Positions 14,217 to 43,292 are shown, numbered from the stretch's first letter. The stretch: DNA of 49,689 nucleotides from Pirellulales bacterium (GCA_036490175.1 DASXEJ010000076.1:1-49689), one strand, 5' to 3'. Notes: generated from the letters alone by a model not told the origin. Translations and numbers: made by a program.

Positions 14217-15905
14217 CTATTGCACGATCTTTAGCGGTCGATTGTCGCACACCTGCTTCCAGACCGCTTGCAGTTGCTGCGAGTACTGGGCGGCGGTTTG
14301 GCCACCCGGAATGTCGAAGTACACGCCGCTGGTGATGCTCGCGATCTGGCTCATCAGGGACGTATCAGCCAAGGCACCCATGCTGATCGTGACAACCGGA
14401 TAGCCGGCGGTGGCGGCGGCGTTAGCCTCTTGAATGGCAAGAGATTTGGCGCTACTCGTCGAGCCAGGCAGGTTGGCAACACCGTCGGTCATCAACACGA
14501 CCATTTTGAACGCGTTCGGTCGGGCATTGTTCTGCAATTGGGTTCGAGCCGTCTGCAGGCCGTTGTAGATGTTCGTGCCACCGGTGTAGTGGCCCGCTTG
14601 GCGTGCCGAGACAATGTTCGAGATCGAAGTGTAGTTGGCCGTCAAAGCGCTTTCCAATATGGCCGTCTGATCGGAGTACGTGTAGATCGACAATCCAATG
14701 CGGTCGTCTTGATTGGCGGCCGTGATATAGGACATGAAGTTCGCGACGGAATCTTTCAACGCGCCGACAGGTTGCTCGTGGGTGCTGGCCAATATCGGGG
14801 TTTGGTTATGTTGATATTGATTCGCCTGTAAGTAATTGATCCACGTCATGTAGCCGTACATGTTGGCATAGCCGGCGCTTTGCACGTAGCTGTCCGACTG
14901 CACGTAGCTGAAGTAGTTTGCCCAACTGTCGCCCGAATATGGGTACGTCACGTTGGTCAAGCCGAAGGCTTTCATGAGAGTCGTCGAGTCGGTGCCGAAA
15001 CGTTCGCCAGAGCCGGCCGGGTTGCCGCTATCGTTGGTGCCCGACTTGATCCAGGCCGTTTCCACGATTTTGCTGGCGTTCGCACCGGTGCCATTGAACG
15101 TGCCGCTCGTGCCGGAGGTCTTGATGGTCTGTGTAGACCCATCGGTAAATTGCAGTTTGACCTGTGTAATGCTCTTCGTGCTGGTCACCTGCACGCCATT
15201 ATCTTGGACCTGCGTAACAATCTGAGCCATGTTGCCGTTGGTGGGCGTCATGCCCGTGATCGTGGCATACTGTGGAGTGAATTGCAGCGTGCCATAAACC
15301 GGACTGTGCATGTCCTGATACATCTGCTGGAGGCAACTCTGTACATAGGGCAAACCGAGCGTGCTGGCGTTGCGGAATTGGCTGTCGTACGCCATCGATG
15401 CCGAGAAATCGAGCACCAGCATGATGTCGCGCGGCTGGTACATGGCTACGCTCTTGGCCTGCAGATTGACCGAATTCTTGTTTAGCACGCGGCCAAAGAA
15501 GAGCGATTCGTTGTTGTCTAGCAAAGTCACTTGCACGGCCGAAGGAGTCGAGGAACTGGACGTAAACGCGAAGCTGTTCGTGTTCCAAAGCCCAAAATTC
15601 ACGGTCATATTTGACGGATCGATCGCGCGGCCTGCCACGTTGTTCATGGCCAGGTAACTCTGCGCGGCCGTCGTCGCGGCGCCGTTGCCGTTGACCAATG
15701 CACCAGCGGCCGCCAGAGCAGAGGCGTCGCAGGCACGCTGTAATTCTGCCTGGGTGTTCGCGATGTATCCGACGTCGACACTGAACGCCACCATGCCTAA
15801 CATGACGACCATGAAGATCGCGGCCAGCACGGCGATAGCCCCTTTACGTCGCGACCGATTCGAGGCTTGCGAGCGACCCGAGGCAATTCGTTCAAGAAGA
15901 CGCAT
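14217..15905 (-). CDS. TadG-like pilus-assembly protein with VWA domain
   Basis: 562 residues from ATG 15905, preceded by AGGTGGG. The N-terminus is the TadG/TadE type: a basic stretch (NRSRRKGAIAV), one membrane helix (about 23-42), then SVDVGYIANTQAELQRACDASALAAAGA, the standard post-helix motif. A von Willebrand factor A domain starts near residue 155 with IMLVLDFSASM (metal site DxSxS) and contains VVLMTDGVANLPG. Between these metal-site parts is a long insert rich in Ser, Thr, Gln and Tyr (about 175-400). Such proteins are anchored by the N-terminal helix and act in Flp/Tad pilus assembly or adhesion. No other tad gene is within the window, so its partners are elsewhere or absent. Confidence 0.85.
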   Translation of the reverse strand: MRLLERIASGRSQASNRSRRKGAIAVLAAIFMVVMLGMVAFSVDVGYIANTQAELQRACDASALAAAGALVNGNGAATTAAQSYLAMNNVAGRAIDPSNMTVNFGLWNTNSFAFTSSSSTPSAVQVTLLDNNESLFFGRVLNKNSVNLQAKSVAMYQPRDIMLVLDFSASMAYDSQFRNASTLGLPYVQSCLQQMYQDMHSPVYGTLQFTPQYATITGMTPTNGNMAQIVTQVQDNGVQVTSTKSITQVKLQFTDGSTQTIKTSGTSGTFNGTGANASKIVETAWIKSGTNDSGNPAGSGERFGTDSTTLMKAFGLTNVTYPYSGDSWANYFSYVQSDSYVQSAGYANMYGYMTWINYLQANQYQHNQTPILASTHEQPVGALKDSVANFMSYITAANQDDRIGLSIYTYSDQTAILESALTANYTSISNIVSARQAGHYTGGTNIYNGLQTARTQLQNNARPNAFKMVVLMTDGVANLPGSTSSAKSLAIQEANAAATAGYPVVTISMGALADTSLMSQIASITSGVYFDIPGGQTAAQYSQQLQAVWKQVCDNRPLKIVQ

Positions 15906-16097
15906 GACCCACCTGCCTTCTGTACAAATCAGAGATGTGAGTGTGTATGGCGCCGACCGAGCGACGCGAAAATACATATTCTGGCGACGTGCAAATGAAA
16001 GATAGCTCATACTGCAGGCCGAGCGCGGAAATTTACAATCCACCGTCGACCATTACGCACAATCGCACGGCCTCGACCCCGTCGCGCTGAATCGACG

Positions 16098-20513: not shown

Positions 20514-23500
20514 TCAGGTAACGTCGACCGCCGGCATTTCTGCCATGCGTGCTGCGGAGACTGCTTTGCGAGCCACGAGCGGCCAGCAAGCATAGGCGAT
20601 GCCGAAAGCGAATAGTAGAATCCCGGGCCAGGCGGGAGTTGCCCATGCCACCAGGGCTAGCCCCACGGCACTCATCGCCAGGCCGGACGTACGAAGGGGC
20701 AGCGGGGGCGGGGCGACGCCTCGGAGCCGCCAGGCGATGACTGCCCCGGCGGCCGTAAGTAGCAATGCTGCCAGCCACTGTCCTGACGTCGAGATCGACC
20801 ACGGCGCCAGATACTGAACCGTGATCGACGGCACGTCGCTGGAGAATAACCAGCGACCAGTACAAGATGCCCCGTTTACAAGCGCCCCCGGCAGGTCGCT
20901 GCGGATTCCAACATCCCGATACGACCACGGCTGGGGTACGACACCATTCGGCTCGACTAATTGCACGGTTCCCCCCGCGCCAAAGCCGTAGATATGCCAA
21001 GTTGTGCGCGTAACTTCTGGCTCTATCAAGCGCGGGGCGGTCAGGCTGATACGATCCGACTGTGACGCGGCGGGCGATGCATCGCGGAAGACAACCTCCA
21101 CCGTTTGACGATCACGCCCGGGCGAAAGCGGGATCTGCCAGCCGCGCGCGGCCTTGCCCGGTGTCACCGGCAGACCGGACGCCCGTAATTCGAGGATTTC
21201 AATCCCGTCGGGTACGCTCAGCTGACAGTCGGTTCGAGTGGCCCCGTTGATGACAAAAGTCGCTATTCCGCGGCAGGCGGAACTTGGGTTCCACAGGGCA
21301 TGAATATCGGCGCTCACTTCGTTGGTGCGCTCGTCGGGCCGTGCGACGGAACTTTGTGCGTGGGCCGTCGGCTCGGTCGCGCGAAACACGTTATAGGTGT
21401 TCGGCAATGGCGGCGGAATCATGTCGGGCGGAAGTGAATCGGGCCGCAGCCCGTGGGTTTTCCACACCACGTGTTCGCTCCCCATCGTCGTCGGCAGCAG
21501 CAGGTAGCTCGTCACATCTTTATCGCTCATCCCGCTGATTTCGGGAATTGAAATCGGATCATCAGCCGCCAGGTGCAGTGGAGACCGCAAGGTGAATCCT
21601 TGCTGTCCCTCGAGGGGCGTTTTAGGTCGCACGATCAGCCGTCGGATGCTGTGCGATCCTGGTAACGTCTCGAGTGCGGCCGTTGGAGTAACTTCAAATG
21701 GTCCTACCCATTCCGCGGGAAGATCGAATCCAACCGCATCCAGACAGCCATCCGCGACCGACGCACGAAAGTCGACCCGCCCTTCCCAAGCGTCGTTGGC
21801 GCGGCCCAGCGACGTCAGTTGCGTGGCACGCACTTGGGGCGTGTTGCGAGTGACGCGCAAAGTCGCAAGAAAATCGTCGTTGTGGGCGATCAGCGCAAGG
21901 GCAACTCGCCCCGGCAGCGACACATCGTCGCTGGCGCGGGACCGTTCGGTTTCCACGATGCCCCGTCCCGATTCCCATGCGACATGCGTATCTGGCTGGC
22001 GGAGCACCAGTACGGTCGTGTCATGCTGCCCAGGATATTCAACGTTGACGCGCGGCAGATTCCAGCTGCCCAATGCTACAGCAATCTGACCATTCAGCGT
22101 CAGTTGCACACGCCCGCTCACGGGGCTCGATAAAAACACCGTAATCATCCCCTGCTCGTCGCGCGCCCAACGACTGACGCGATCCAACCCATCGTGGATG
22201 AGGGTAATCTTTTCGATTTCCAGATCGCGCGGCGCGGTGAGGCGGTATTGCAGCAGGTATGGTGCAGCCGGCAACTGTCCTTCGGTGGGGGTAATTTGTG
22301 CTTGGAACCGCACGAGGGCGCGGTGCTCGCCAACGCTGAGTTGCAATCGTTGCTTGACGAACGCTTGCGCTTCTCGAGGGCGAGTGGCAATTCTCCAAGG
22401 TTCACCCTCCGGTAGCCGAATCGCCCATTGAGGGGCTGCGGGGGCCGCACCCCAATGAGACAGAAACTCAGCCACGGCAATTTTCGGGGCCGGCGCTTGA
22501 GTGTCGTACTGCAAAGTGGGATCAATCGAGATGGCTAACAGGCGGTCGCGCACCGGGATCCCTTGTGGCAATATATTGGGCAGCGGTAACTGGCCAATTC
22601 CCGAGCTACCGGTAAGAAGAAATGAGACAGGAATGGTCACGTGCTCCGTCACTGCCCGGGCAAGTTCGACGCGCACCGTTTGGGGATCGCCGGCGACGGG
22701 TTGCACACTAGCCACCGTGCCTGAGCGGTCGACTACTGGCAGCGGTCTCAATCGCGGGTCGATCGAGAGCAGCAACTCGGTCAGAGGCGACTTAAGTGCC
22801 TTGATATCGAGTCGAGCATGTACGACGACGGAAGCCGGCTGAATCTGCAACCACAACCAGATATCGGCCTCGCCGCTGGCGACGTTGAGACGGGCCGGGC
22901 GCGATCGTGTCCAACGAATCTGTAACTGCGCCGCGGGACCAAGATCGACGGCGACTTTGCGGCCGTCGGGCGAAAACGTCGCGACGCCGCGGGCCGTGGG
23001 GACCTCGACTGTCGGAGGATTCGGCGGAAGTTGTACCTCAACGGTGGCTTGTGGAATGGGCGGAATCGCCATTTCCAGGGCGTTCGCGGCTTCCGCGTCT
23101 CGCGGCGGTCTCAAGGAAACGTTGAGCTGATAAACGCCTGGCTCGTCGAAGCGGCAGGTGAAACCGTCCTCGTCCGTATCCCAAGGAATGTCGACCTCGC
23201 GTCCCTCACGACGGGCGGTCAACCCGGGTCGAATGCCCGTCATGGGTATGCTCACTCGCGCATCCGGCTTCGAGACGACGACGTCGTACTGAGCCAGCAC
23301 ATCGCTCGGTCCGAGGGTATCGGAGGCCGCCTCGCGATTGATCGTCAACCGATAGCGGGCGGATCGAATCAACCATCCCTGATCCCCCTGGGACTCGTTT
23401 TCAAGGCGGCGATGGAGTTCGTCATAGAGCTGCTCCGGCACCTGGTACTTGTCTTCTGTAGGCTTGTCCTTGTTGTCGACCGGAATAAACACACGATGGA

Positions 23501-26500
23501 CCAGCGGCGCGGTTGCACCCGACTCGTTGGCTGGGTTTTGGGCTCGACTCAGCGATGTGATACCGACGAGGGCAGTGAGCAACGCCAGCGGAGTGATACT
23601 CGCGACCGACTTCCAGCGTATTGAGCTCACACCGGAAGTCGAATCAGCCTGCCGCGACGCGATCCTCACCCGGGGAACGATCAATTGCCAGGCCAGGGCG
23701 CTGACGATTCCCCACAGGCAGCCCGTCGCGATCGAGGCCATATTCGGCGGCACCACGAGTGCCACAGCAGCCGCCAAGGGGAGCAACATGGCGAGTCGCC
23801 GCTGAGAAATCGCCAGACACAAGCTGGTGGCCAGCATGAGTACGCACGACGCGAGCACCCACGTCGTTGCAGCAGCGTCGCGCACAATCGCTGCCTCGAC
23901 CTGGTTGGAGCCATCGCAGGGAATCAAGTAGGGGGTTGCCGCGAGACCATCGCTGGTCGACACCACTTGGGCTGGCATGCTCCAGGGGGCGGCGCCGGGC
24001 GCGGTCCAGACCGTCGAGGGGACGATGCCTGTGCCATCGGGCGCAGCATTTACGGCGGCGCGCAGCGGTCCAGTTTCTAGCATCGCCAGCGTGGCAGGTG
24101 TGATCCAGTGGATGTTATTTCGTTGGATTGCGGCAGTCAGGCAGCTGCTGAGCAACACGGCGTCGGGCGTGGCAAGCAGAATTAGATTTGCGTCTGTCAG
24201 CACATCGTGCGTCTCCGCGCTCGAAGACGCCTCAGACTTCGCGTTTACGCGGGCGCCGGCTGCAATGTCTATCGCAGCGAGTGCCGGGCTGTCGACCAAT
24301 AGCTCGAGTCCCAAGGCGTGCGCTGCATCGGCCGCCTGAGTAACGAGCGTCCCCCAGGTTGCTTCCGGTGACTCGACGCGCAGCACATTTGCTATATCGT
24401 CAAAGCGCGAGGCGAACTCAGCGGCGGACCTCCAAGATGGCGGAGCGGAGAATCCCAATTGCGTGGCCCACATGTCGATGGAAAACAAGGGGAAGCGGGC
24501 ATCGCCGGTCACCGGCCCGAGCGGACCAAGCAACCGCTTTCTCCAAGTCAATCCGTTGGCGGCAGGTTCTGTTGAGCCGCCGGTACTGCTCAACAACGAA
24601 TATCCAGGCGGCAGCCACAGCAACCAATCGCTGGCCACTACCGGTATATTTAGCTCCGCGAATTCTGAACGCAGGCGTCCACCGTCAAACTTCAGCCCCA
24701 TCGACCGGTATTCGACGACGAGTGTGCTCGTCGAACGATCCGGCTCGAGGGGGATTGATACGAGTCTACCAGGCGGCGGCATCTGCTGGTGTCCGTCGAG
24801 CCATAGCCGTGACATTTCGGCGGTTTCGGGAATCGATAGCGTTAAGTCGCTTTGGCCAGCGTTCCGCAGCAAATACGTTGCCACGTGCAATACGTGTCCG
24901 GCGGCGTCGTAACGAGATTCGACGCGACGATGCCATGCCACGGCGGCCGAGGCGGGTGTCAATACGGTGTCGTCTTGCGCCACGATGATGCGGCCGGCAG
25001 GGTCAGCCGGATCGTAGCTGAAGGCGGCTCGCGCGGCGGTACTGGTATCGCTTTCCGGCACGTTGATGAGCCTGACTCCCTCGTCACGGATCGAGATCCC
25101 TAGATCGGCCGCAGCTCGCACGACAACTTGTCCACTCTGACTGGTTGCGTCTGGCAATGAGATGAGGCTCAACGAGGTCTCGACCATGCGTGGCGTATCC
25201 CGCACGGCTTCGATTTCAAACGCCGCGCCGCGAGGAATGGCAAGCGTCAATTCCCAGAATTCATGCGTCGCTGGCAGCTTGCGGGAAGCTTGCTCGGACG
25301 TGCTAAGCCTGCGGGCGACGAGACTGCCGCCGCTATCGCCCACAATCCGGAATCGTACCGGCTCTGGCCGAGGTTCACTAAATGCAAGGAGCACGTTCGA
25401 CACCCGATCGCCCGCAGGCCGGCAGCGTACGGTATAGGATTCTGTCAGCGTTGCGCTACCTACGAGAGCGTCGCAGTGGATTTCGTCTTCGTGCTGCGGT
25501 CTTCGTTCTGCAAGGGTGGCGGTGAAACGCGTTCGCTCCGGGACGATGCGATAGACAAACCCCGGACCGTGGTTGCTGAACAGCGCGAGCTGCGATGCGC
25601 TGAGTTGGTCTGCTTCAACGCGTGTCAGATCCACGGTATCTGCCAGGTCGAGCGCGTGAGTTGACGACGGTCGAATCCATAGCAGTTGGTCGTCGACGAT
25701 TGCGTCGCGAAACCGCAAAGGCACAAGGTCGCTTGCCTGCCATTTTTGATCGTGGTCCGCCGTCGCGCGGCAGTGTGCCCGAATGACAAGTTTCAGGGGG
25801 ACGTCGGGAGCTAGCGGCCTGGCAAGCCGCACGGTCAACCGCGGCAGCGCTTCGGCGATTGAGACATGCCAGTCCTCCAAGGCGTCGGCAGGAATTGTTT
25901 CGATAGTATCGATGCTCCAACTCCCCACGATGTCAGCCGTCAGCGAGGAACGGCGCCCGCTAGCGGTCTGCCACGCGGCAATAAGTCCGGCTTGCGCGGC
26001 GCGATCACCAAGTTCGACGGATAGTCCGGTCGAAACCTGGGCCGGCGCGGATTGCCGCGACAAATCCAGCTGAACTACGGCTGCCTCGCCGAACAGTTGC
26101 ACTTCAAAAGACTCGCCGCGATTTGGATCCGGCAGGACCGCATACTTCGTCTGACGGCAGTCACTGGTTACCAATCGACGGGTAACGAGGGGCTCGCGCA
26201 CGAGAAGCGTGCTCGTACCTTCCTGCCAACCGAGGTCGGCGGTGCGAATGCGCGGTAACGGGCGTGTCGCATCCAGCACCAGCGGGCCGATGGCGGCCAG
26301 CCGCAAAGGCCGATCCGATCCAACCAGTGGTTCCGCGGGCTCGAGGGTGACATTCGTGGCCCCTTCGGTGGAATCCGGCTCGATCCTGAACGGTACGTCG
26401 ACTTCGCCCAATCTGGCTGATACTAGTTGCAATCCAGCATCGAGCGACAACGTCAGGCGTCGCAATGGCGCGGTACGCGCGTCCAGCCTCCAGACCGTGG

Positions 26501-27311
26501 CCAGGTCCAGACCATGCGTCGAGAAGTCATAGACCGATACCTCACGCATCGTCGCGCCCGGTTGACTAACGGCGTGTGCGGCTTCACCCGTAAGACGCAG
26601 CGTGACCGTATGTTGGCCACCCAGCAGGATGCGGTAGACCTGGCGGTCTCCTTCCGTTCGATCCTGCGAAACCAGCCCCGCGCTGGCCACCGGAACGATG
26701 CCTTGCGGGACGGTTAAGTACAACGTCGTAGTTGCGCAAGCGGGAAATTCGAAGAGGAAAACGGGCTGACCGTCAGCATCGTGCTTGCCGCGCAACGACC
26801 ACGGCGCCGTAAGCTCGCCCGTGCTATCGACCAACAACGCCGAGTCACCACTGGCGGAGAGCCCTATTTCCGCTCGTCGCACGGGCTTGCTCCACCGGGC
26901 CTCGCCGATCGCAAGGTTGAACGGGGCCACAGGCATCATCGTCGACGACTTGGCACGATTCTCGATGCTCCAGCTGAGCTGGCCTTGCAAATGGTCGCTG
27001 TCCTTGAACTCGGCGTCGTAGCGCGCGCCATTGAGCGTTGCGGCGACTGGCGACTCATCGGACGATGCCGCGACGGCCGTGATCAGTCGCTCGAATTCCT
27101 CGCCGTCGACAGGAACATAGCGTGTCGAGCCGCGCGGCCACTCCTGCACGCGTTCGGCAGGGGCATAAACTCGGCGGAATCGCAGCGGTGTCGCGCCGGT
27201 CGGATTGGTCGGTTGCGCAGGGGCGGTGCCGCGCGGCTCGTCAGCCGCAAAAACCGATTCCCAGGGCATCGTGAGCGCGATGCAAACTATCACCCAACGC
27301 GCGGCGATCAT
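20514..27311 (-). CDS. Giant secreted/membrane protein of unknown function (2265 aa), two-module fusion
   Basis: No known family recognised. The chain has a signal peptide (MIAARWVIVCIALTMPWESVFA), about 1120 residues of beta-strand-rich, alternating polar/hydrophobic sequence, a cluster of membrane helices (about 1145-1215), a second signal-like segment (ITPLALLTALVGITSLSRAQ, about 1245), another 900 or so residues of beta-rich sequence and a last cluster of about three membrane helices (about 2175-2245). The two halves look like full genes of one type joined end to end: near each start there is RRVYAPA...YVPVDGEEFERL and HRVFIPV...YQVPEQLYDEL. Before the first membrane cluster is an alpha/beta part (about 975-1090, IANVLRVESPEATWGTLV, ANLILLATPDAVLL). 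The ATG overlaps the stop of the preceding gene by one base (TAATG), so the two are co-translated. Probably an envelope protein with large domains outside the membrane. No catalytic motif seen. Confidence 0.85.
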   Translation of the reverse strand: MIAARWVIVCIALTMPWESVFAADEPRGTAPAQPTNPTGATPLRFRRVYAPAERVQEWPRGSTRYVPVDGEEFERLITAVAASSDESPVAATLNGARYDAEFKDSDHLQGQLSWSIENRAKSSTMMPVAPFNLAIGEARWSKPVRRAEIGLSASGDSALLVDSTGELTAPWSLRGKHDADGQPVFLFEFPACATTTLYLTVPQGIVPVASAGLVSQDRTEGDRQVYRILLGGQHTVTLRLTGEAAHAVSQPGATMREVSVYDFSTHGLDLATVWRLDARTAPLRRLTLSLDAGLQLVSARLGEVDVPFRIEPDSTEGATNVTLEPAEPLVGSDRPLRLAAIGPLVLDATRPLPRIRTADLGWQEGTSTLLVREPLVTRRLVTSDCRQTKYAVLPDPNRGESFEVQLFGEAAVVQLDLSRQSAPAQVSTGLSVELGDRAAQAGLIAAWQTASGRRSSLTADIVGSWSIDTIETIPADALEDWHVSIAEALPRLTVRLARPLAPDVPLKLVIRAHCRATADHDQKWQASDLVPLRFRDAIVDDQLLWIRPSSTHALDLADTVDLTRVEADQLSASQLALFSNHGPGFVYRIVPERTRFTATLAERRPQHEDEIHCDALVGSATLTESYTVRCRPAGDRVSNVLLAFSEPRPEPVRFRIVGDSGGSLVARRLSTSEQASRKLPATHEFWELTLAIPRGAAFEIEAVRDTPRMVETSLSLISLPDATSQSGQVVVRAAADLGISIRDEGVRLINVPESDTSTAARAAFSYDPADPAGRIIVAQDDTVLTPASAAVAWHRRVESRYDAAGHVLHVATYLLRNAGQSDLTLSIPETAEMSRLWLDGHQQMPPPGRLVSIPLEPDRSTSTLVVEYRSMGLKFDGGRLRSEFAELNIPVVASDWLLWLPPGYSLLSSTGGSTEPAANGLTWRKRLLGPLGPVTGDARFPLFSIDMWATQLGFSAPPSWRSAAEFASRFDDIANVLRVESPEATWGTLVTQAADAAHALGLELLVDSPALAAIDIAAGARVNAKSEASSSAETHDVLTDANLILLATPDAVLLSSCLTAAIQRNNIHWITPATLAMLETGPLRAAVNAAPDGTGIVPSTVWTAPGAAPWSMPAQVVSTSDGLAATPYLIPCDGSNQVEAAIVRDAAATTWVLASCVLMLATSLCLAISQRRLAMLLPLAAAVALVVPPNMASIATGCLWGIVSALAWQLIVPRVRIASRQADSTSGVSSIRWKSVASITPLALLTALVGITSLSRAQNPANESGATAPLVHRVFIPVDNKDKPTEDKYQVPEQLYDELHRRLENESQGDQGWLIRSARYRLTINREAASDTLGPSDVLAQYDVVVSKPDARVSIPMTGIRPGLTARREGREVDIPWDTDEDGFTCRFDEPGVYQLNVSLRPPRDAEAANALEMAIPPIPQATVEVQLPPNPPTVEVPTARGVATFSPDGRKVAVDLGPAAQLQIRWTRSRPARLNVASGEADIWLWLQIQPASVVVHARLDIKALKSPLTELLLSIDPRLRPLPVVDRSGTVASVQPVAGDPQTVRVELARAVTEHVTIPVSFLLTGSSGIGQLPLPNILPQGIPVRDRLLAISIDPTLQYDTQAPAPKIAVAEFLSHWGAAPAAPQWAIRLPEGEPWRIATRPREAQAFVKQRLQLSVGEHRALVRFQAQITPTEGQLPAAPYLLQYRLTAPRDLEIEKITLIHDGLDRVSRWARDEQGMITVFLSSPVSGRVQLTLNGQIAVALGSWNLPRVNVEYPGQHDTTVLVLRQPDTHVAWESGRGIVETERSRASDDVSLPGRVALALIAHNDDFLATLRVTRNTPQVRATQLTSLGRANDAWEGRVDFRASVADGCLDAVGFDLPAEWVGPFEVTPTAALETLPGSHSIRRLIVRPKTPLEGQQGFTLRSPLHLAADDPISIPEISGMSDKDVTSYLLLPTTMGSEHVVWKTHGLRPDSLPPDMIPPPLPNTYNVFRATEPTAHAQSSVARPDERTNEVSADIHALWNPSSACRGIATFVINGATRTDCQLSVPDGIEILELRASGLPVTPGKAARGWQIPLSPGRDRQTVEVVFRDASPAASQSDRISLTAPRLIEPEVTRTTWHIYGFGAGGTVQLVEPNGVVPQPWSYRDVGIRSDLPGALVNGASCTGRWLFSSDVPSITVQYLAPWSISTSGQWLAALLLTAAGAVIAWRLRGVAPPPLPLRTSGLAMSAVGLALVAWATPAWPGILLFAFGIAYACWPLVARKAVSAARMAEMPAVDVT

Positions 27312-30300
27312 TACGATTCCCCCGGAGTGGCGGCCGCCTCGGGAATCAGCGGCGTTGGCTCGGCTCCGGGCACGCCCGGCTGGGCGCGCAGATGGGTTCT
27401 CGTCGAGCCGGGTTCAGAAATCGAGCTCGGGCTGGATCGCACTAGCAGAGGCGCCGACCGGCGGGATTTCAAATAGTGGTCCAAAAACGCCGCGATCATC
27501 ACGAGCGCGGCGCCCATGGCGGCGGCTTGGGCGATCAGCAACGCCGGTTCAGGGAAAGTTAGTGCCCCGGCTGCCAGCACAACACCCACAACGAACAGCA
27601 TCGCCGGGTGCCGTAATGCCGGCAGGTACAACAACAGTAAGCCAACGGCCAGTACGCTGCCGGCTCCGGCCATCACCAGCTTGGCGCGGCTAGCCGTATA
27701 AACCTCGAGGTTCTCGATTGAGCCGAGCGAGGTTAGTACGTAACGATTCGTTTGCGGCGAAACTTCCAGGCCCGCTGAGGCGTTGGACCAAGACTCGAGT
27801 TGCGTTTGCTCTACAAGGGGCTGCCGCCCCCAAGAGCCGGCTTGAAGTCGCCATTGAAAGGCGCCCGTCAAGTCGGACGGCCAACTTACCAGGTGTTCGT
27901 CGCGGGGAAACACAAGCTGCCAATAGGTCTGACGCACCGACTCTCCGGCGGCCAACTTGGGAGCGGCAAGTACAAGTTGTCCAGACTGCTTTTTCCGTGC
28001 CGCGAACCGATAACTGAGATCGAGCACATGCTGCCGCCGAGCGGGGCTAACGTCGAACGTCAGCGTGCCTTGCGTGGGATTCTGTGGCGCGATCGCCATC
28101 CCATCTAGCGTCCCGCGTGCCTCAGAGGCGATCGCTCCCGCGGGCAGATGCACATCGATACGACTGTCGCCGCCAGCGAAAAGATAGACGACGCGGTCCC
28201 AACGCTCGTGACCCTCCAGCCGACTTTGAATCCAGGCCCGATCTACGACAAGCGGATCGGACGTGCGATGCATTTCGCGCCGGACTTGCAAGACTACCTC
28301 GGGGACCGCTACTGAGTTCGACAACCGGAATGTGCCGCGGCCAGCGTCTTCGGCACTTGATTGGACGCTCCACGAGTCGTCACGCGATTCCACTTGCAGT
28401 CCAGCGTCAGACGTAACCGTTAACTCGTTGTTGACAATCAGAGCCATGGCAGGCATTACCAGCGGCACCTTGATCGTCTGCGATGCACCAGCCACAAGCG
28501 GATCGACCTGTATGGGGTAACGCACGACAAGCGTGCAGGCTCCGATACGTTTTTCCGGGAATGGGACACGCAGGCGGACAGTACGCTCGATGTTGGATTC
28601 GGTTCCTGCGGCGGTGGGCGTGATCGGCTGGCCGTCTAGTTGCCACTGGACTCCGGCCGCGCCGTCCAGCCACGAGGGGACGTCGACCAAGAGATCGCTG
28701 ATCGGTTCGTGCGAAATAGTGAGGATCAGGGTCTCCTCAACCTGTCCTTCTTTGTCTCCCAGTTGCAGCCGTCCGCGGATATCGGCCGACAACGCACGGG
28801 ACTCGACGCGCAAGTCGCCCACGAAGCGGGATTGCGCACCTTGGCCGCGAAATGCCAAATCGCCTCGATGATTTGGTGCCGCGACGGCCGAAGCCACGTC
28901 GCCGCGAGCCCGGACGAGACCCATTAGGTCGGCCTCGCGCACCGTGATGGCCACGTTTGTTGACGGAGTCACGGTCAGTTGGGCCGGCCCGACGTCGTTC
29001 GCCACAGGACGTGGCAATACAAAGTCGATCTGAGTGGCGTCGGCCGCTAGTTCGCGGTGGGCGCGCAAGACCAGCAAAATCTCCCCAGTGGTCGGTTGTA
29101 AAAGCGGTATCCGCAGGGGCTTGTCCGTTTCGACGGTCATGCGGTCGACGTCAAAGAGATTGCGCGGAGTTACATCGTCGAGCTCCCAACCGGGAATGGC
29201 GATTTCCAGGGCGAATGCCTTGGCGCCGCGCACCTGATACTTAAAGCGCCCCTCCAAACGGGCGGACTGCGGATTGACCGCGACGTTGAATTCCGGGTCG
29301 ACCGAAACGTGGGTTTCTAGCGGCAGCACGTGTCCGGCGACAGAAAAAGGCTCGCTAAAATACTCGAAGCAGGCGACGGTTCCGTCGTGGTCCAGATCCA
29401 GGTCCTGAGGTAAGTCCGCGATCCGCCGTACCTGATGTTGCTCGTTCCAGGAGATTTGCCAGTCGGCTGCGACGCGGACGGCCAGGTAACCTGACTGGCG
29501 TGCCGCTCCGACCAACTCGACACTATCGATCTCGAACGCCCGCTCGACGCCGCTGCCCGCATGGGGCCGATCGACAGAAAACACGATCGACACAGGGCCT
29601 GCCGTTTTCTCGCGCAATCGGACATCGAACGATTGCGAAGTGCTCGCCTCGGGCTGTTTGCCGGCAGAAGGTTCGATTGCGTAGTCGGCATGCTCACCGG
29701 CCGTCAACGTCCTGCCTGCCGGTAGCTTGAGGCTAAATGCATCGAACCGGGCGCCAAAGCTGCGTACGGTCAGTTGGACCTTTGTATGAACTCCCACGCC
29801 GTCGATTTGTGTGTCGAGCAATCCCGTTGCTTCGATGGGTGCCGCGGCCTCGGGACCCTCGGTTCCCTCTCGCTGCCAACTTATGGCGAAGTCGCGGTCC
29901 ATGCCCAGAACCGTGAACTCGGTGGTCGAGTCTGTGTGCTTTGTATCATCGAGCACCCCCCCTTCTTTGATCGTTGCTTCGACCTTGGGGTCTGCCACGG
30001 AAAGCGTCAGTTTCGAGACTGCAGCACGGGGCAGGTCGAGCTTCATCTCGGTCTGGTCGGTGACTCTTTCCAGCGGGGCGGCAATATCGAGCGTGAGACG
30101 ATGGGGCTGGTCTTGCTCGCCCTTGAGCCACAGCACGTACTCCTGGGCCGTCGGGTCATATTCGACGCGCCATTCGCTCGCCCCCTCGTACCGGGGTTTG
30201 TCGCGGAGCATGGCATGGTGAAGCCGCAAGGGGACACGGACCCAGCCAAGGTGATTAACAAGAACGGCGATTTCCACGGTCAAATCGGCTTGCCGATCAT

Positions 30301-30628
30301 TGGCCGTGCCGCGGGCTATGACCTTATCAAGCTGGAATTGAGGCGGCTGCTGCCCCAGGCTGAGCTGGGCTCGCTGGGTGACCAGTCGCTCGAAATCCTC
30401 TAGCGTGTACCCGAGTACTGCTTGTAACAGCCCGCCGTCCTTGTTCCGCAAAAACAGCACCGGCGGCTGAACTTCCTTGACGGCCCCGTCGGTCGAGCGA
30501 GACGTTTCTTCCGCGGTCTGGTTGCGACCCTCCTGCGGATCGCCTGCGCGCACGAGCGCAATGGGACTGGCTGCCCAAAGACAGGAGCACAGCGCAATTG
30601 TCCAAATCCGGGGGATTTGCAAGACCAC
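27311..30628 (-). CDS. Large secreted/membrane protein of unknown function (1105 aa)
   Basis: No known family recognised. GTG start at 30628, signal peptide (WTIALCSCLWAASPIALVRA), then about 950 residues of beta-rich sequence and a C-terminal cluster of two to three membrane helices (about 980-1050), closing with a short basic tail rich in Ser and Pro. The opening PVLFLRNK...LGYTLEDFERLV and a late TYWQLVFPRDEHLVSW parallel pieces of both halves of the downstream giant protein, which suggests one repeated architecture. The downstream gene begins in its stop codon (TAATG). Its position upstream of and coupled to the giant gene suggests the two products work together in the envelope, perhaps as a complex; function unknown. 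Confidence 0.85.
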   Translation of the reverse strand: MVLQIPRIWTIALCSCLWAASPIALVRAGDPQEGRNQTAEETSRSTDGAVKEVQPPVLFLRNKDGGLLQAVLGYTLEDFERLVTQRAQLSLGQQPPQFQLDKVIARGTANDRQADLTVEIAVLVNHLGWVRVPLRLHHAMLRDKPRYEGASEWRVEYDPTAQEYVLWLKGEQDQPHRLTLDIAAPLERVTDQTEMKLDLPRAAVSKLTLSVADPKVEATIKEGGVLDDTKHTDSTTEFTVLGMDRDFAISWQREGTEGPEAAAPIEATGLLDTQIDGVGVHTKVQLTVRSFGARFDAFSLKLPAGRTLTAGEHADYAIEPSAGKQPEASTSQSFDVRLREKTAGPVSIVFSVDRPHAGSGVERAFEIDSVELVGAARQSGYLAVRVAADWQISWNEQHQVRRIADLPQDLDLDHDGTVACFEYFSEPFSVAGHVLPLETHVSVDPEFNVAVNPQSARLEGRFKYQVRGAKAFALEIAIPGWELDDVTPRNLFDVDRMTVETDKPLRIPLLQPTTGEILLVLRAHRELAADATQIDFVLPRPVANDVGPAQLTVTPSTNVAITVREADLMGLVRARGDVASAVAAPNHRGDLAFRGQGAQSRFVGDLRVESRALSADIRGRLQLGDKEGQVEETLILTISHEPISDLLVDVPSWLDGAAGVQWQLDGQPITPTAAGTESNIERTVRLRVPFPEKRIGACTLVVRYPIQVDPLVAGASQTIKVPLVMPAMALIVNNELTVTSDAGLQVESRDDSWSVQSSAEDAGRGTFRLSNSVAVPEVVLQVRREMHRTSDPLVVDRAWIQSRLEGHERWDRVVYLFAGGDSRIDVHLPAGAIASEARGTLDGMAIAPQNPTQGTLTFDVSPARRQHVLDLSYRFAARKKQSGQLVLAAPKLAAGESVRQTYWQLVFPRDEHLVSWPSDLTGAFQWRLQAGSWGRQPLVEQTQLESWSNASAGLEVSPQTNRYVLTSLGSIENLEVYTASRAKLVMAGAGSVLAVGLLLLYLPALRHPAMLFVVGVVLAAGALTFPEPALLIAQAAAMGAALVMIAAFLDHYLKSRRSAPLLVRSSPSSISEPGSTRTHLRAQPGVPGAEPTPLIPEAAATPGES

Positions 30629-32153: not shown

Positions 32154-32891
32154 GTGAATCGTTCTGACAATTGGCATATCAGCGAGTCGCGGGCCCATCT
32201 CAAGCTCGGTCCGTTTGAAGCGACGCTGGACATCACGCTGCCGAATCGTGGATTACATGAGCTTCGATTTCGTGATTCGCCCTTGCCGCTAGCCAACTTG
32301 CTGGCGGTGTGGTTTACAGCCCAGCACGCAGAGCAGTACCACGTCGTCAGCGATTATTTCATTCGGGGCCGCGACCTCGTCGTCACGTACGCGCAACAGC
32401 CTGCGTGTCCTGTCCGCTTGCAAGTTTACTGGCGCGCGGTCGACCGTGATGACGCGCCTGATTGTCTGGCGGCGATCGACGTGCAAGTATCCGTGCAGAC
32501 AAGTTTGCTCGACGCGTGGCCCGCGCTGACGATCGGTAGCCAAGTACCGACGCGCGACGTTGCCTGGATGTCCCATTCGAAAGGTGATTCGTCGCAAACT
32601 TGCGCGACAACGCCCACTGTGCCTGCCGGATACTGGCGCTGTCGGCTGGTGGAGCACCCATTGAGCTATGGCGAAATGGTGCATCCCGTGGGCGCCGGAC
32701 GAGACGTGTTGATCGAGAGCGAGACGGATTTAACGAGACTTTCGCATCATCTTTTCGCCGAATCCCTGGAGAAGGGGGTCATCCTGCGCGCTCAAGCTCG
32801 GGGTGTGCTGACGTCAACCGTCGACGATGACGAGGCGATTGCAGCTGCTTACGGCAAATTCTTGGCGGCACCTCTGCCACTTACGACCTGA
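32154..32891 (+). CDS. Hypothetical protein (245 aa)
   Basis: Not recognised. Soluble, no signal peptide or membrane helix. Strand-rich pattern with several Trp and His, for example LKLGPFEATLDITLPNRGLHELRF near the start, PVRLQVYWRAVD and AIDVQVSVQTSLLDAWPAL in the middle, and a helical end (DDDEAIAAAYGKFLAAPLP). The symmetric 'A.L.IT.P..G' opening suggests a beta-sandwich or galactose-mutarotase-like fold, a weak guess. GTG start. It stands between the candidate small RNA and the sensor kinase and shows no operon link. Confidence 0.75.
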   Translation: MNRSDNWHISESRAHLKLGPFEATLDITLPNRGLHELRFRDSPLPLANLLAVWFTAQHAEQYHVVSDYFIRGRDLVVTYAQQPACPVRLQVYWRAVDRDDAPDCLAAIDVQVSVQTSLLDAWPALTIGSQVPTRDVAWMSHSKGDSSQTCATTPTVPAGYWRCRLVEHPLSYGEMVHPVGAGRDVLIESETDLTRLSHHLFAESLEKGVILRAQARGVLTSTVDDDEAIAAAYGKFLAAPLPLTT

Positions 32892-39912: not shown

Positions 39913-42912
39913 TTATGGGAAGACCAGCATCGGTGCGATGACACCGGCGACAGTGCCCTGCGGAAGAAGGGTCGTGACACCGGCACCGGAAAAGATTATA
40001 AGCGGCGTGTTCAGGCCCCCATCCTCTACGCCAACCACACCGGTTGGCGGAGGGTTGTTGGAGGTATTCTCAAAGAGGTACTGTTGATTCGAGATGTTGT
40101 GCGTCAACTCTACCAAAATCACCGATTGGTTTGGCGGCGTTTCCTGGTCTACCAGTGCATGGACTGGCGAACTGGCTTGGGGCGTTTGGGCACGGTTGAA
40201 GTCCATGACATTGTCACGGATTTCAGCGGCGATCGTCGCTTGGAAAGTCAAAGGCGGAATAGGATCGTGGGCAAGCAGGTCCACTCCATCGTGGCCATTG
40301 CCGCGGATTTGATTGCCAAAGATCTGCAAAGCCATGCTACCCCCGCCGCTGGTTGTGGCAGTAATGCCAGACACAGGCGTGTCGCCAGCGTTTGTGGGAA
40401 CGGTTTGAGAGTATTCGCCGTTGTAGTTGATGACATTGTTTGAGAAGCCACCAATGATGCGGCTGGTTAGGCCGTCGCTTTGCAGCGAGACACCACCATC
40501 CTTGCCACCGGTTCCGGCCTGCGCAACGGTTGGGCTTACGTTCCCATTGATGGTATTATTTGTGGCAGTGATTCGCACCAATGATAGGCCGCTGGCCTCG
40601 GTTTCGAGACCGGCCAGGTAGTTATTAGAGATGTTATTGGTGGTCAACGTTGCATCGAGGCGCGTCGTTCCGGTTACAAATAGTGATAATCCGTAGCCGA
40701 TATTGTTCTGGATCTGATTGTTATTGAGATTCAGCAATTGGACATCAGTGTTTGTCACAGCGTAGTCGAGTCGGATACCGTCGCCCCAATGGGCATTTAC
40801 GTACGGGCTGGCTTGAACTTGCTGTTGAGTGTTGTAGCCGGCGACCGTATTGTTCGCGAAACTAAGATTTGTAAGACTATTGCCCTCGAACTGTCCTGAA
40901 ATTGCGGCGGCGGTATCGAAGAAGATAATGCCGCCAACCGTAGACTGGCTACCGGCATTATTGATAAACGAATTATTGCTGATTGCGCCATTCACAGCGC
41001 CGTCTAACGAGTACATCCGAATTCCTGCACCGCCGCCGCCGGATTGGCCGTTGAAATTGATCTGGTTATTCGTGATGGCGAAGTTCAGCACCGAGCCATT
41101 GCGCGAGGCAAGCTGAATGCCATCGCCCAGGTTGTATTGAATCGGACGGTTGTCGTGGATGTTGGCCGTCAGCTCTGCCCCAACGTTCTGTACCTGCAGG
41201 AGCATGCCCTCGGTATTGCCCTGCACGGAGTTGTCGCTGACCTCTACGTTCATGCTGCCGGAGTTGGTCAGGACTTGCAGGCCGGCCCAGTTGCCGCGAC
41301 CATTCTCACCGATCGTATTGGAGTCGATCGCCGCGGCGCCATTAGATGACTCGAAGAAGATACCGTTGCGAATGTTCGCATCGACGGTGTTGCCGCGGAT
41401 GTCGTAATTGCCGGTGCCGCCGAAGATGTGGATGCCGTCTTCGCGGTTGTCGGTGATCGTATTGTTGCGTATATGCGCCAAGCCCGTGAAATTGGTCAAG
41501 AGCACGCCATCGACGCCGGAGTTGATGATCCGGTTGCTCTCCATCGAGAAGTTGTTGACCGAATTGCCGACGATGCCGAACTGGGCGCCCGTGATCGTCA
41601 TGCCGCCAACGCGATCGTCGTTGGCGAGCGTTACGGCCCCGCCCGCGGCGTTGGTGATTACCGGACCTTCCTGATCGAGCGCCTTGAGCAAGAATCCGCC
41701 CACTTCGGTCGTCTGCATCACGTAGCTATTGCCCGAACCCAACAGAGTTTGATCGTCTTTGAGAACGATCCCCTCGTTGTAGTTGCGTGCCGTCCCGTCG
41801 CCGGAATGGACGTAGATGATGTCATGCACGGCTGACGCGTTCTGGGCAGTGATCAACGAATTGAACGGGTGCTCTGCGGTACCGTTTCCGCCCGCCGGGG
41901 CGTTGTTGTCGACATGAATTACGTGGTAATACGCGTTCGTCGTCGGGTTCGTCGCGATCTCAGGCTGCTGATTGAAGCGGACAATATGATCGTTGCGTCG
42001 GGTTGGCTCCAGCAGGCGGTTACCCGTGCGCGAGTTGCCTGGCGAGCCGCGCAGGCCAAAGGCCACGCGGATGAATCCCGTGGTGCCGAACAAATCGTCA
42101 TGGTTGACTTCCATGTTGATGGCAACGCCGGGGACGGGCTGCACGCCGAAACCGGTCGAGATACCGCCGAAGGTCGACACGACGGGCGATTTGTAAACGT
42201 ACCCGCCGATATCGATGTAGCCGTTGAGCGGGCCAAGGAACGCGGGCCGGAGGCTGAATTTGGCATCGCCGCCGTGCAACGCCGTATCGATGCCGTTTTG
42301 GTACAGCAGATAGTTTTGGGTGAATTCATTCAGCACATGACTGGTCGCGCCCACGGGAAAGTAGCCGTTCACCCGGACGTCGCACACCGGATTGAATATT
42401 TCGCCGGTCACGCCCAGCTGATTGTAGCGATAGCCGTAGTTTTGGTAGGCATCGCCGTCGTAGTCGTACCAGCCACTGAGGCCGACGATCGCGTTCAGCG
42501 GATCGAAATACGCGCGACGCCCAATTCCGAGGTTACTGAAGAATTGTCCGTAGTCGGCCGTCACGTGGGCACGAGCGTCGACGAACCACGTGCCGTCGAG
42601 CATATCGGTCGTGATCGGTAACAGGCCGCCGGCCGAGAGATATTGCCCCTGAAAGCCAAGCCCGCGATCGGCACCGACGTAGCCAACCCAGAACGGCTGC
42701 AGACCAGGCGTGCTGAGCGGACTCATGAAGCTCGGGCCCGGCGCGCCCGAATCGGTGACAATGGCCTGCGCGCGTGCCATCCCGGCGGCGCCCAGCACCA
42801 GGGCCAGCAGGCCGAGTGCCGTAACGCATACGAAACGGCCCGATATGACGGACCGACCCGCAGCCGCGCCCGGCATACGGAGTCTCTTTGTGACAAATGG
42901 AATTGCCTTCAC
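39913..42912 (-). CDS. Inverse-autotransporter-like outer-membrane protein with parallel beta-helix
   Basis: 999 residues from GTG 42912, backed by a long purine-rich site (GGGGGGAGAG) upstream; a longer start at 42954 is possible. A signal peptide (FVCVTALGLLALVLGAAGMARA) is followed by about 260 residues that look like a beta-barrel (alternating aromatic strands; FFSNLGIGRRAYFDPLNAIVG, GWYDYDGDAYQNYGYRYNQLGV, RVNGYFPVG), in the style of the intimin/invasin-type inverse autotransporter domain. From about 320 on there is a long chain of NxI-type repeats of about 22-24 residues (NRIINSGVDGVLL, NNTITDNREDGIHI, NTIGENGRG), a right-handed parallel beta-helix (PbH1) passenger. Barrel first and passenger last is the inverse autotransporter order. 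Likely a surface-exposed adhesin or glycan-binding protein. Confidence 0.82.
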   Translation of the reverse strand: MKAIPFVTKRLRMPGAAAGRSVISGRFVCVTALGLLALVLGAAGMARAQAIVTDSGAPGPSFMSPLSTPGLQPFWVGYVGADRGLGFQGQYLSAGGLLPITTDMLDGTWFVDARAHVTADYGQFFSNLGIGRRAYFDPLNAIVGLSGWYDYDGDAYQNYGYRYNQLGVTGEIFNPVCDVRVNGYFPVGATSHVLNEFTQNYLLYQNGIDTALHGGDAKFSLRPAFLGPLNGYIDIGGYVYKSPVVSTFGGISTGFGVQPVPGVAINMEVNHDDLFGTTGFIRVAFGLRGSPGNSRTGNRLLEPTRRNDHIVRFNQQPEIATNPTTNAYYHVIHVDNNAPAGGNGTAEHPFNSLITAQNASAVHDIIYVHSGDGTARNYNEGIVLKDDQTLLGSGNSYVMQTTEVGGFLLKALDQEGPVITNAAGGAVTLANDDRVGGMTITGAQFGIVGNSVNNFSMESNRIINSGVDGVLLTNFTGLAHIRNNTITDNREDGIHIFGGTGNYDIRGNTVDANIRNGIFFESSNGAAAIDSNTIGENGRGNWAGLQVLTNSGSMNVEVSDNSVQGNTEGMLLQVQNVGAELTANIHDNRPIQYNLGDGIQLASRNGSVLNFAITNNQINFNGQSGGGGAGIRMYSLDGAVNGAISNNSFINNAGSQSTVGGIIFFDTAAAISGQFEGNSLTNLSFANNTVAGYNTQQQVQASPYVNAHWGDGIRLDYAVTNTDVQLLNLNNNQIQNNIGYGLSLFVTGTTRLDATLTTNNISNNYLAGLETEASGLSLVRITATNNTINGNVSPTVAQAGTGGKDGGVSLQSDGLTSRIIGGFSNNVINYNGEYSQTVPTNAGDTPVSGITATTSGGGSMALQIFGNQIRGNGHDGVDLLAHDPIPPLTFQATIAAEIRDNVMDFNRAQTPQASSPVHALVDQETPPNQSVILVELTHNISNQQYLFENTSNNPPPTGVVGVEDGGLNTPLIIFSGAGVTTLLPQGTVAGVIAPMLVFP

Positions 42913-43292
42913 GCTCTCTCCCCCCTCGGAAGACGGACGGTGTGTCGCCGTCACAATCGTTAGATGCGGTATGGTCCATCGTCACGGTAGAAGTTTCCGG
43001 ATGAGACTTTTCGCTACAATCCGCAAAGTCACAGCGTGGATTCAAGCGTTTCCGTTAGTCAGCAAAAGCTGCGCAAACCTTGCGGGCAGGCGGCCGCGCA
43101 CGTGGCCAGATCGGGGCGGTGCGGCATGCTGCTAGCCGCGCGGTGGTAGCACCGAGAGAAGGGGGACGGCCGCCACGGAGAGAAGGCTGATGTCGACGTG
43201 CTTTGCTGATCGTGACGGCTGGCGGCGGATGGAACAGCAGCCGCGCGCGCATTCACGCTCGAACTACCCCGTAAAGGTGCCCGCCGGCGCGC
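42913..43292. other. Intergenic region upstream of the surface protein
   Basis: About 380 bases between the M19 dipeptidase and the barrel/beta-helix gene, both read leftward. No gene and no clear promoter seen; a GAGAGAAGG motif occurs twice (about 43157 and 43179). Probably the promoter and leader of the surface protein. Confidence 0.35.

Follow-up and report, generated by a model that had tools for sequence, protein, structure and literature searches.

Two giant overlapping planctomycete genes encode three homologous blocks of five tandem units: a widespread envelope protein family without a description in the libraries and literature searched

Two giant genes of a Pirellulales bacterium, A and B, together encode three blocks of common origin (A, and the two halves of B, designated B1 and B2), and the two genes constitute one family. 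Each block consists of five tandem units of about 170–190 aa followed by a membrane cluster, and the unit is most likely a very divergent version of the N-terminal domain of M1 aminopeptidases (M1-N). The family is widespread in the planctomycete phylum and is absent from the protein-family libraries searched, and on these grounds it is a real, undescribed envelope component. The genes lie within a stretch of 49,689 nucleotides (the window), and the coordinates of their features are listed in Table 1.

As the original prediction had it, the two long open reading frames are both present and coupled, with the stop codon of A and the start codon of B sharing one nucleotide (TAATG). At least 11 relatives have the classical overlap of exactly 4 nt, which makes translational coupling likely and likely to be conserved among the relatives, as judged from the gene boundaries; the large A/B overlaps seen in other relatives are probably an artefact of always taking the earliest start codon.

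Table 1. Features of genes A and B. Positions are those of the window; U1–U5 are the tandem units of each block.
Feature	Position	Strand	Basis or remark
Gene A (1105 aa)	27311..30628	(-)	ORF, GTG start; block 1: signal/anchor segment, five-unit body, C-terminal membrane cluster, cytoplasmic tail (topology inferred)
A conserved opening, ...LFLRNKDGG...EDFERL	30353..30466	(-)	Short beta hairpin and helix; AF2, alignment
A U1 (aa 95-259), M1-N-like beta sandwich	29852..30346	(-)	VIA Z 12.6, rmsd 3.3 over 152 aa to LTA4H N-domain
A U2 (aa 263-437)	29318..29842	(-)	Profile repeat
A U3 (aa 438-609)	28802..29317	(-)	Profile repeat
A U4 (aa 610-789)	28262..28801	(-)	Profile repeat; VIA Z 12.1, rmsd 3.9 over 151 aa to aminopeptidase N (4qhp)
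A U5 (aa 791-980), bears TYWQLVFP	27689..28258	(-)	VIA Z 12.1, rmsd 2.9 over 146 aa to tricorn factor F3; anchor column
A C-terminal membrane cluster, helices (~aa 981-1056)	27461..27688	(-)	Hydropathy; AF2 helices
Gene B (2265 aa)	20514..27311	(-)	ORF, ATG start; blocks 2 (B1) and 3 (B2) joined head to tail
B1 U1 (B aa 87-248)	26568..27053	(-)	Unit profiles; Ost1 match covers U1-U2
B1 U2 (B aa 251-420)	26052..26561	(-)	VIA Z 13.9, rmsd 3.0 over 160 aa to LTA4H N-domain
B1 U3 (B aa 421-603)	25503..26051	(-)	Unit profiles; hhalign to M1-N profile 90%
B1 U4 (B aa 604-786)	24954..25502	(-)	Unit profiles; AF2
B1 U5 (B aa 788-912, approximate), bears SDWLLWLPP	24576..24950	(-)	AF2 strands; anchor column
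B1 accessory alpha/beta insertion (B aa ~945-1105)	23997..24479	(-)	Before membrane cluster; variable, shortened or absent in about 1/3 of relatives
B1 membrane cluster (~B aa 1145-1211)	23679..23879	(-)	Hydropathy; AF2
Signal/anchor-like helix opening B2 (B aa 1235-1255)	23547..23609	(-)	Hydropathy
B2 U1 (B aa 1310-1475)	22887..23384	(-)	98.5% to A U1
B2 U2 (B aa 1478-1646)	22374..22880	(-)	Unit profiles
B2 U3 (B aa 1647-1823)	21843..22373	(-)	Unit profiles
B2 U4 (B aa 1824-1992)	21336..21842	(-)	Unit profiles
B2 U5 (B aa 1994-2169), bears TTWHIYGFG	20805..21332	(-)	98.1% to A U5; anchor column
B2 membrane cluster (~B aa 2179-2248)	20568..20777	(-)	Hydropathy; sequence

The common origin of the blocks is established by profile comparison. 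Relatives of A, B1 and B2 from 57 genomes and from the wider phylum were aligned as three independent families and compared by hhalign, and every pair matches at 100% probability (A with B1, E=3.1e-52; A with B2, E=4.2e-51; B1 with B2, E=4.5e-40), with alignments covering 817–832 columns; an earlier hhalign run of the blocks gave the same picture. Reversed-profile controls between blocks reach at most 4% probability, and a block against its own reversed profile at most 29%, over short stretches (one of them 219 columns long, at 2%). Within the 7.6-Mb genome that carries the genes, the sole further convincing match of the A-family HMM is B1 (E=4.5e-22), and that of an HMM of the N-terminal 390 aa of A is B2 (E=1.5e-13). 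The three late anchors listed in Table 1 fall in the same alignment columns (TYWQ at A 901, SDWL at B1 894, TTWH at B2 2103), as the original prediction of one shared architecture implied. The opening motif that it also proposed holds for A and B1, where DFERL and EFERL occupy the same columns, while the opening of B2 aligns with them but has LYDEL. Outside the anchors the likeness is as weak as it had appeared by eye, with pairwise identities between blocks of 14–17%. Such low identity is what could be said for three unrelated beta-rich proteins that resemble one another in composition, a reading with practically no probability left and already refuted by the E-values and their negative reversed controls, by the anchors standing in register, and by distant genomes in which B is carried as two separate genes.

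These separate genes, of about 1140–1470 aa, occur as B1 and B2 in tandem behind A in two other families of the phylum (L126:10521-19250 and L127:9710-16887), and in some further loci judged by ORF size, so that B is best read as a two-block fusion, or the separate genes as a fusion undone. A tree of block N-termini from Pirellulales and some loci of family f21 places A and B2 in pure clades of 22 members each (support 0.996 and 1.0) and B1 in a pure clade of 28 (support 0.88), with the deeper nodes not resolved; the pure clades argue that the triplication is older than the split between Pirellulales and f21.

A second level of repetition, which the original prediction did not contain, lies within the blocks. 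Windows of 220 residues match one another within each block at a spacing of about 170–185, and each block was cut into five units that were compared all against all, leaving out the profile of B1 U5 because its end is not mappable (it was placed by the AF2 model and the anchor). Middle units U2–U4 match one another at up to 98% both across and within blocks, and U5 of A matches its own U4 at 95.9% and U5 of B2 at 98.1%. The first units are the most distinct, matching their counterpart U1s at 97–98.5% and other units at 94% at most. As read from these profile comparisons, an inner repeat of about five units is established for each block. A hydrophobic helix cluster follows each body in A, B1 and B2, and in most relatives a hydrophobic helix precedes it (hydropathy and models); the signal-like start and C-terminal membrane cluster that had been foreseen for each block agree with this.

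The fold of the units was approached with AlphaFold models of A (59 sequences; mean pLDDT 86, pTM 0.48) and B1 (35 sequences; mean pLDDT 82, pTM 0.44), in which pTM values of 0.44–0.48 leave the arrangement of units along the string uncertain. Structural comparison (VIA) matches three units of A and one of B1 to M1-aminopeptidase N-domains (Z 12–14, rmsd 2.8–3.9 A, 146–165 aa). The matched regions are model residues 68–227, 583–757 and 766–952 of A (add 27 for protein numbering; Z 12.1–12.6) and 226–392 of B1 (add 25; Z 13.9, rmsd 3.0 over 160). The best whole-region match of both models is ribophorin I/Ost1, over two successive units (Z 14.9–15.0), but at an rmsd of 12–25 A, which indicates a likeness of domains and not of domain arrangement. 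Foldseek also listed the beta-sandwich strings of integrin alpha and alpha-2-macroglobulin ectodomains, which have no architecture in common with A and B and were rejected as generic (rmsd 18–50 A, TM about 0.1). The M1-N domains of the same order supplied a reference M1-N profile. A pooled U2–U4 profile aligns with it in register, starting at the N-termini and covering about 90 of 180 columns, at 88%, with a reversed control at 0.1%; the values for individual units lie anywhere between under 1% and 90%. It is the VIA matches and this in-register alignment together that make a very divergent M1-N-type domain the most likely identity of the unit. Fold prediction, like profile comparison one of the checks proposed with the original prediction, thus assigns A and B1 the same predicted type of fold (M1-N/ribophorin).

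The fold is therefore a known one; the family and its nested architecture were not found in Pfam, NCBIfam or the literature searched. Neither A nor B has a match above the curated cut-offs in Pfam and NCBIfam, in line with the absence of a recognised family noted originally, and the best match in the PDB by sequence profile has E=0.18. The Pfam models Peptidase_M1_N and Peptidase_M1 find nothing in A or B up to E=1, nor in 34 B2 and 35 B1 members up to E=0.01, and PF17900 has no match on the genome itself. Matches to DUF5693, TM7S3, TgpA_N, OxoDH, SH3_4 and DUF2474 among relatives are isolated, each in a single member (DUF5693 and TM7S3 on membrane segments), and were rejected. No relative was detected in plasmids or viral contigs, nor in GTDB contigs by a single-sequence scan; an alignment scan of the GTDB contigs found one, in a Thermoguttaceae MAG (order Pirellulales).

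Among 57 Pirellulales genomes, relatives of A are present in 53 and of B in 50, adjacent in most of them. The four without A by single-sequence search (G004, G027, G032 and G039) include one of the same genus that is 94% complete. Across the phylum, the full-length A sequence finds matches in 21 of 149 genomes, and a profile of its N-terminal part in 75 of 199. In distant loci B comes after A and mostly contains two block starts, although in five (L178, L192, L196, L197 and L198) just a two-block protein lies behind a VWA gene and the A block is apparently missing. Two members of f21 (L123 and L124) carry two A-B pairs per genome, the second of them diverged; we note that one f21 paralogue pair is near MdoG/glycosyltransferase-type genes and the other follows an outer-membrane efflux (OEP) gene, both single occurrences. 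The undescribed envelope system proposed at the outset fits the signal/anchor segments, beta-rich bodies, membrane clusters and wide conservation in the phylum; what stands is an undescribed envelope component, and that it works as a system we infer. Present in almost all sampled Pirellulales and in many distant families, the gene pair, nearly 10 kb long, is a strong candidate core component of the unusual envelope of planctomycetes.

The gene neighborhoods, whose survey had also been proposed, differ between lineages. In Pirellulales, an inositol-monophosphatase gene commonly stands ahead of A, and B is often followed by a GNAT acetyltransferase gene. A different order recurs on one strand in distant lineages: an ECF sigma factor gene, a gene for an anti-sigma/VWA membrane protein of the YfbK type (with an anti-sigma-type N-terminus, recognised as zf-HC2 in one, and a VWA/YfbK_C C-terminal part), and then A and/or B. 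Both genes are directly upstream in 11 genomes (L164, L168, L178, L180, L182, L185, L191, L192, L194, L195 and L196), and the VWA gene without the ECF gene in two more (L197 and L198), giving 13 genomes from nine distant families; the other 25 of 38 distant loci do not have this order, some of them because the contig ends. A and B themselves differ from YfbK-type VWA/ECF systems in having no recognisable VWA, sigma or anti-sigma domain. No such genes adjoin A-B in Pirellulales or f21, and the genome itself carries an ECF (222 aa) and anti-sigma-like/VWA/YfbK (916 aa) pair that is not linked to A-B (G000 C392; L205:391-3908).

From these features we propose that A and B may form a non-catalytic, inner-membrane-tethered periplasmic scaffold or receptor complex tied to envelope signalling, a reading to which we give about an even chance. 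The hydrophobic start helices and membrane clusters suggest that the bodies of both proteins would be exported to the periplasm, with three points of attachment to the inner membrane. The two proteins could assemble into one large elongated complex without catalytic activity, which would bind or hold envelope polymers or secreted proteins. The ECF and membrane anti-sigma/VWA genes just upstream in distant lineages make it most likely that such a complex would be functionally tied to ECF signalling, as part of an envelope scaffold-and-surveillance system. Against this reading stands the missing link to ECF/VWA genes in the order itself, in f21, and in the majority of the 38 distant loci. Conservation of A-B without such neighbors in Pirellulales and f21, together with the long strings of beta-sandwich modules in the models, favors a purely structural or adhesive fibre, in which A and B would brace the inner membrane to the wall or outer layers, or hold a crowded periplasm, and the ECF/VWA genes of distant lineages would do no more than regulate their expression. 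We regard such a fibre as possible, though well short of even chances, since adjacency to a membrane anti-sigma/VWA gene that repeats in nine families suggests more than housekeeping structure, and no cell-wall or outer-membrane anchor motif is recognised in A or B. The predicted nesting of five modules in each of three blocks, along with the recurring ECF/anti-sigma-VWA neighbors, makes the scaffold-and-surveillance complex an idea that can be tested.

Two further readings start from the fold. The relation to the M1 N-domain, and the restriction of the search on these long proteins to Pfam and NCBIfam profiles, leave room for a divergent or cryptic enzyme (an M1-like peptidase or hydrolase) with an overlooked active site. 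With the M1 aminopeptidases (LTA4H, aminopeptidase N, ERAP1; PF17900), A and B share the N-domain fold of a single unit and a weak in-register profile likeness, but no catalytic domain or motif is found in them, they carry the units in tandem, and they are not reached by the Pfam model. HExxH and GAMEN are absent from both proteins, HExxH being found in one of 39 A relatives and three of 34 B relatives, and the 59-member A alignment has a single invariant column, a glycine; with no catalytic domain matched, an enzyme is very improbable. In ribophorin I/Ost1, a non-catalytic subunit of the eukaryotic oligosaccharyltransferase, tandem M1-N-like beta sandwiches lie outside the cytoplasm ahead of a membrane helix, an order resembling the one predicted for A and B, although the match is to domains within a larger array and at a large rmsd. 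Ost1 has two such domains and one membrane helix, whereas A and B have five domains per block (about fifteen in total) and a membrane cluster in each. As the best whole-region match of both models, these two tandem domains suggest a periplasmic or luminal substrate-holding subunit beside a translocon, a glycosyltransferase or a periplasmic quality-control enzyme. This we consider unlikely, given that the rmsd across the pair is so large and any tandem of such domains would match, that PF04597 (ribophorin I) gives nothing above the cut-off in 20 genomes and none in the genome itself, and that no recurrent oligosaccharyltransferase or glycosyltransferase neighbor of A-B is seen in Pirellulales.

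For the non-catalytic oligosaccharyltransferase subunits, a survey by BLASTp and HMM profiles is reported to have turned up no promising candidates in prokaryotes (PMC4973528). The origin of these subunits is an open question, to which the predicted fold link with ribophorin I is relevant. A bolder version, doubtful and a shade less probable still than a ribophorin I-like subunit, is that the roughly fifteen M1-N/ribophorin-like modules form a phylum-specific periplasmic machine whose modules are closer kin to Ost1/ribophorin I than the M1 enzymes are, in which case a non-catalytic oligosaccharyltransferase subunit would have a first relative among prokaryotes.

Elsewhere in the window, a 608-aa TadG-like protein (Tad and VWA domains; 14217-16043, -) is encoded on the same strand downstream of B; its VWA match was considered as an anti-sigma/VWA partner and rejected, the protein being TadG-like. 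A 245-aa ORF (32154-32891, +) without a Pfam match is conserved, lying divergently near the inositol-monophosphatase and A genes in 16 loci, and a 1013-aa protein (39913-42954, -) includes a right-handed beta-helix region.
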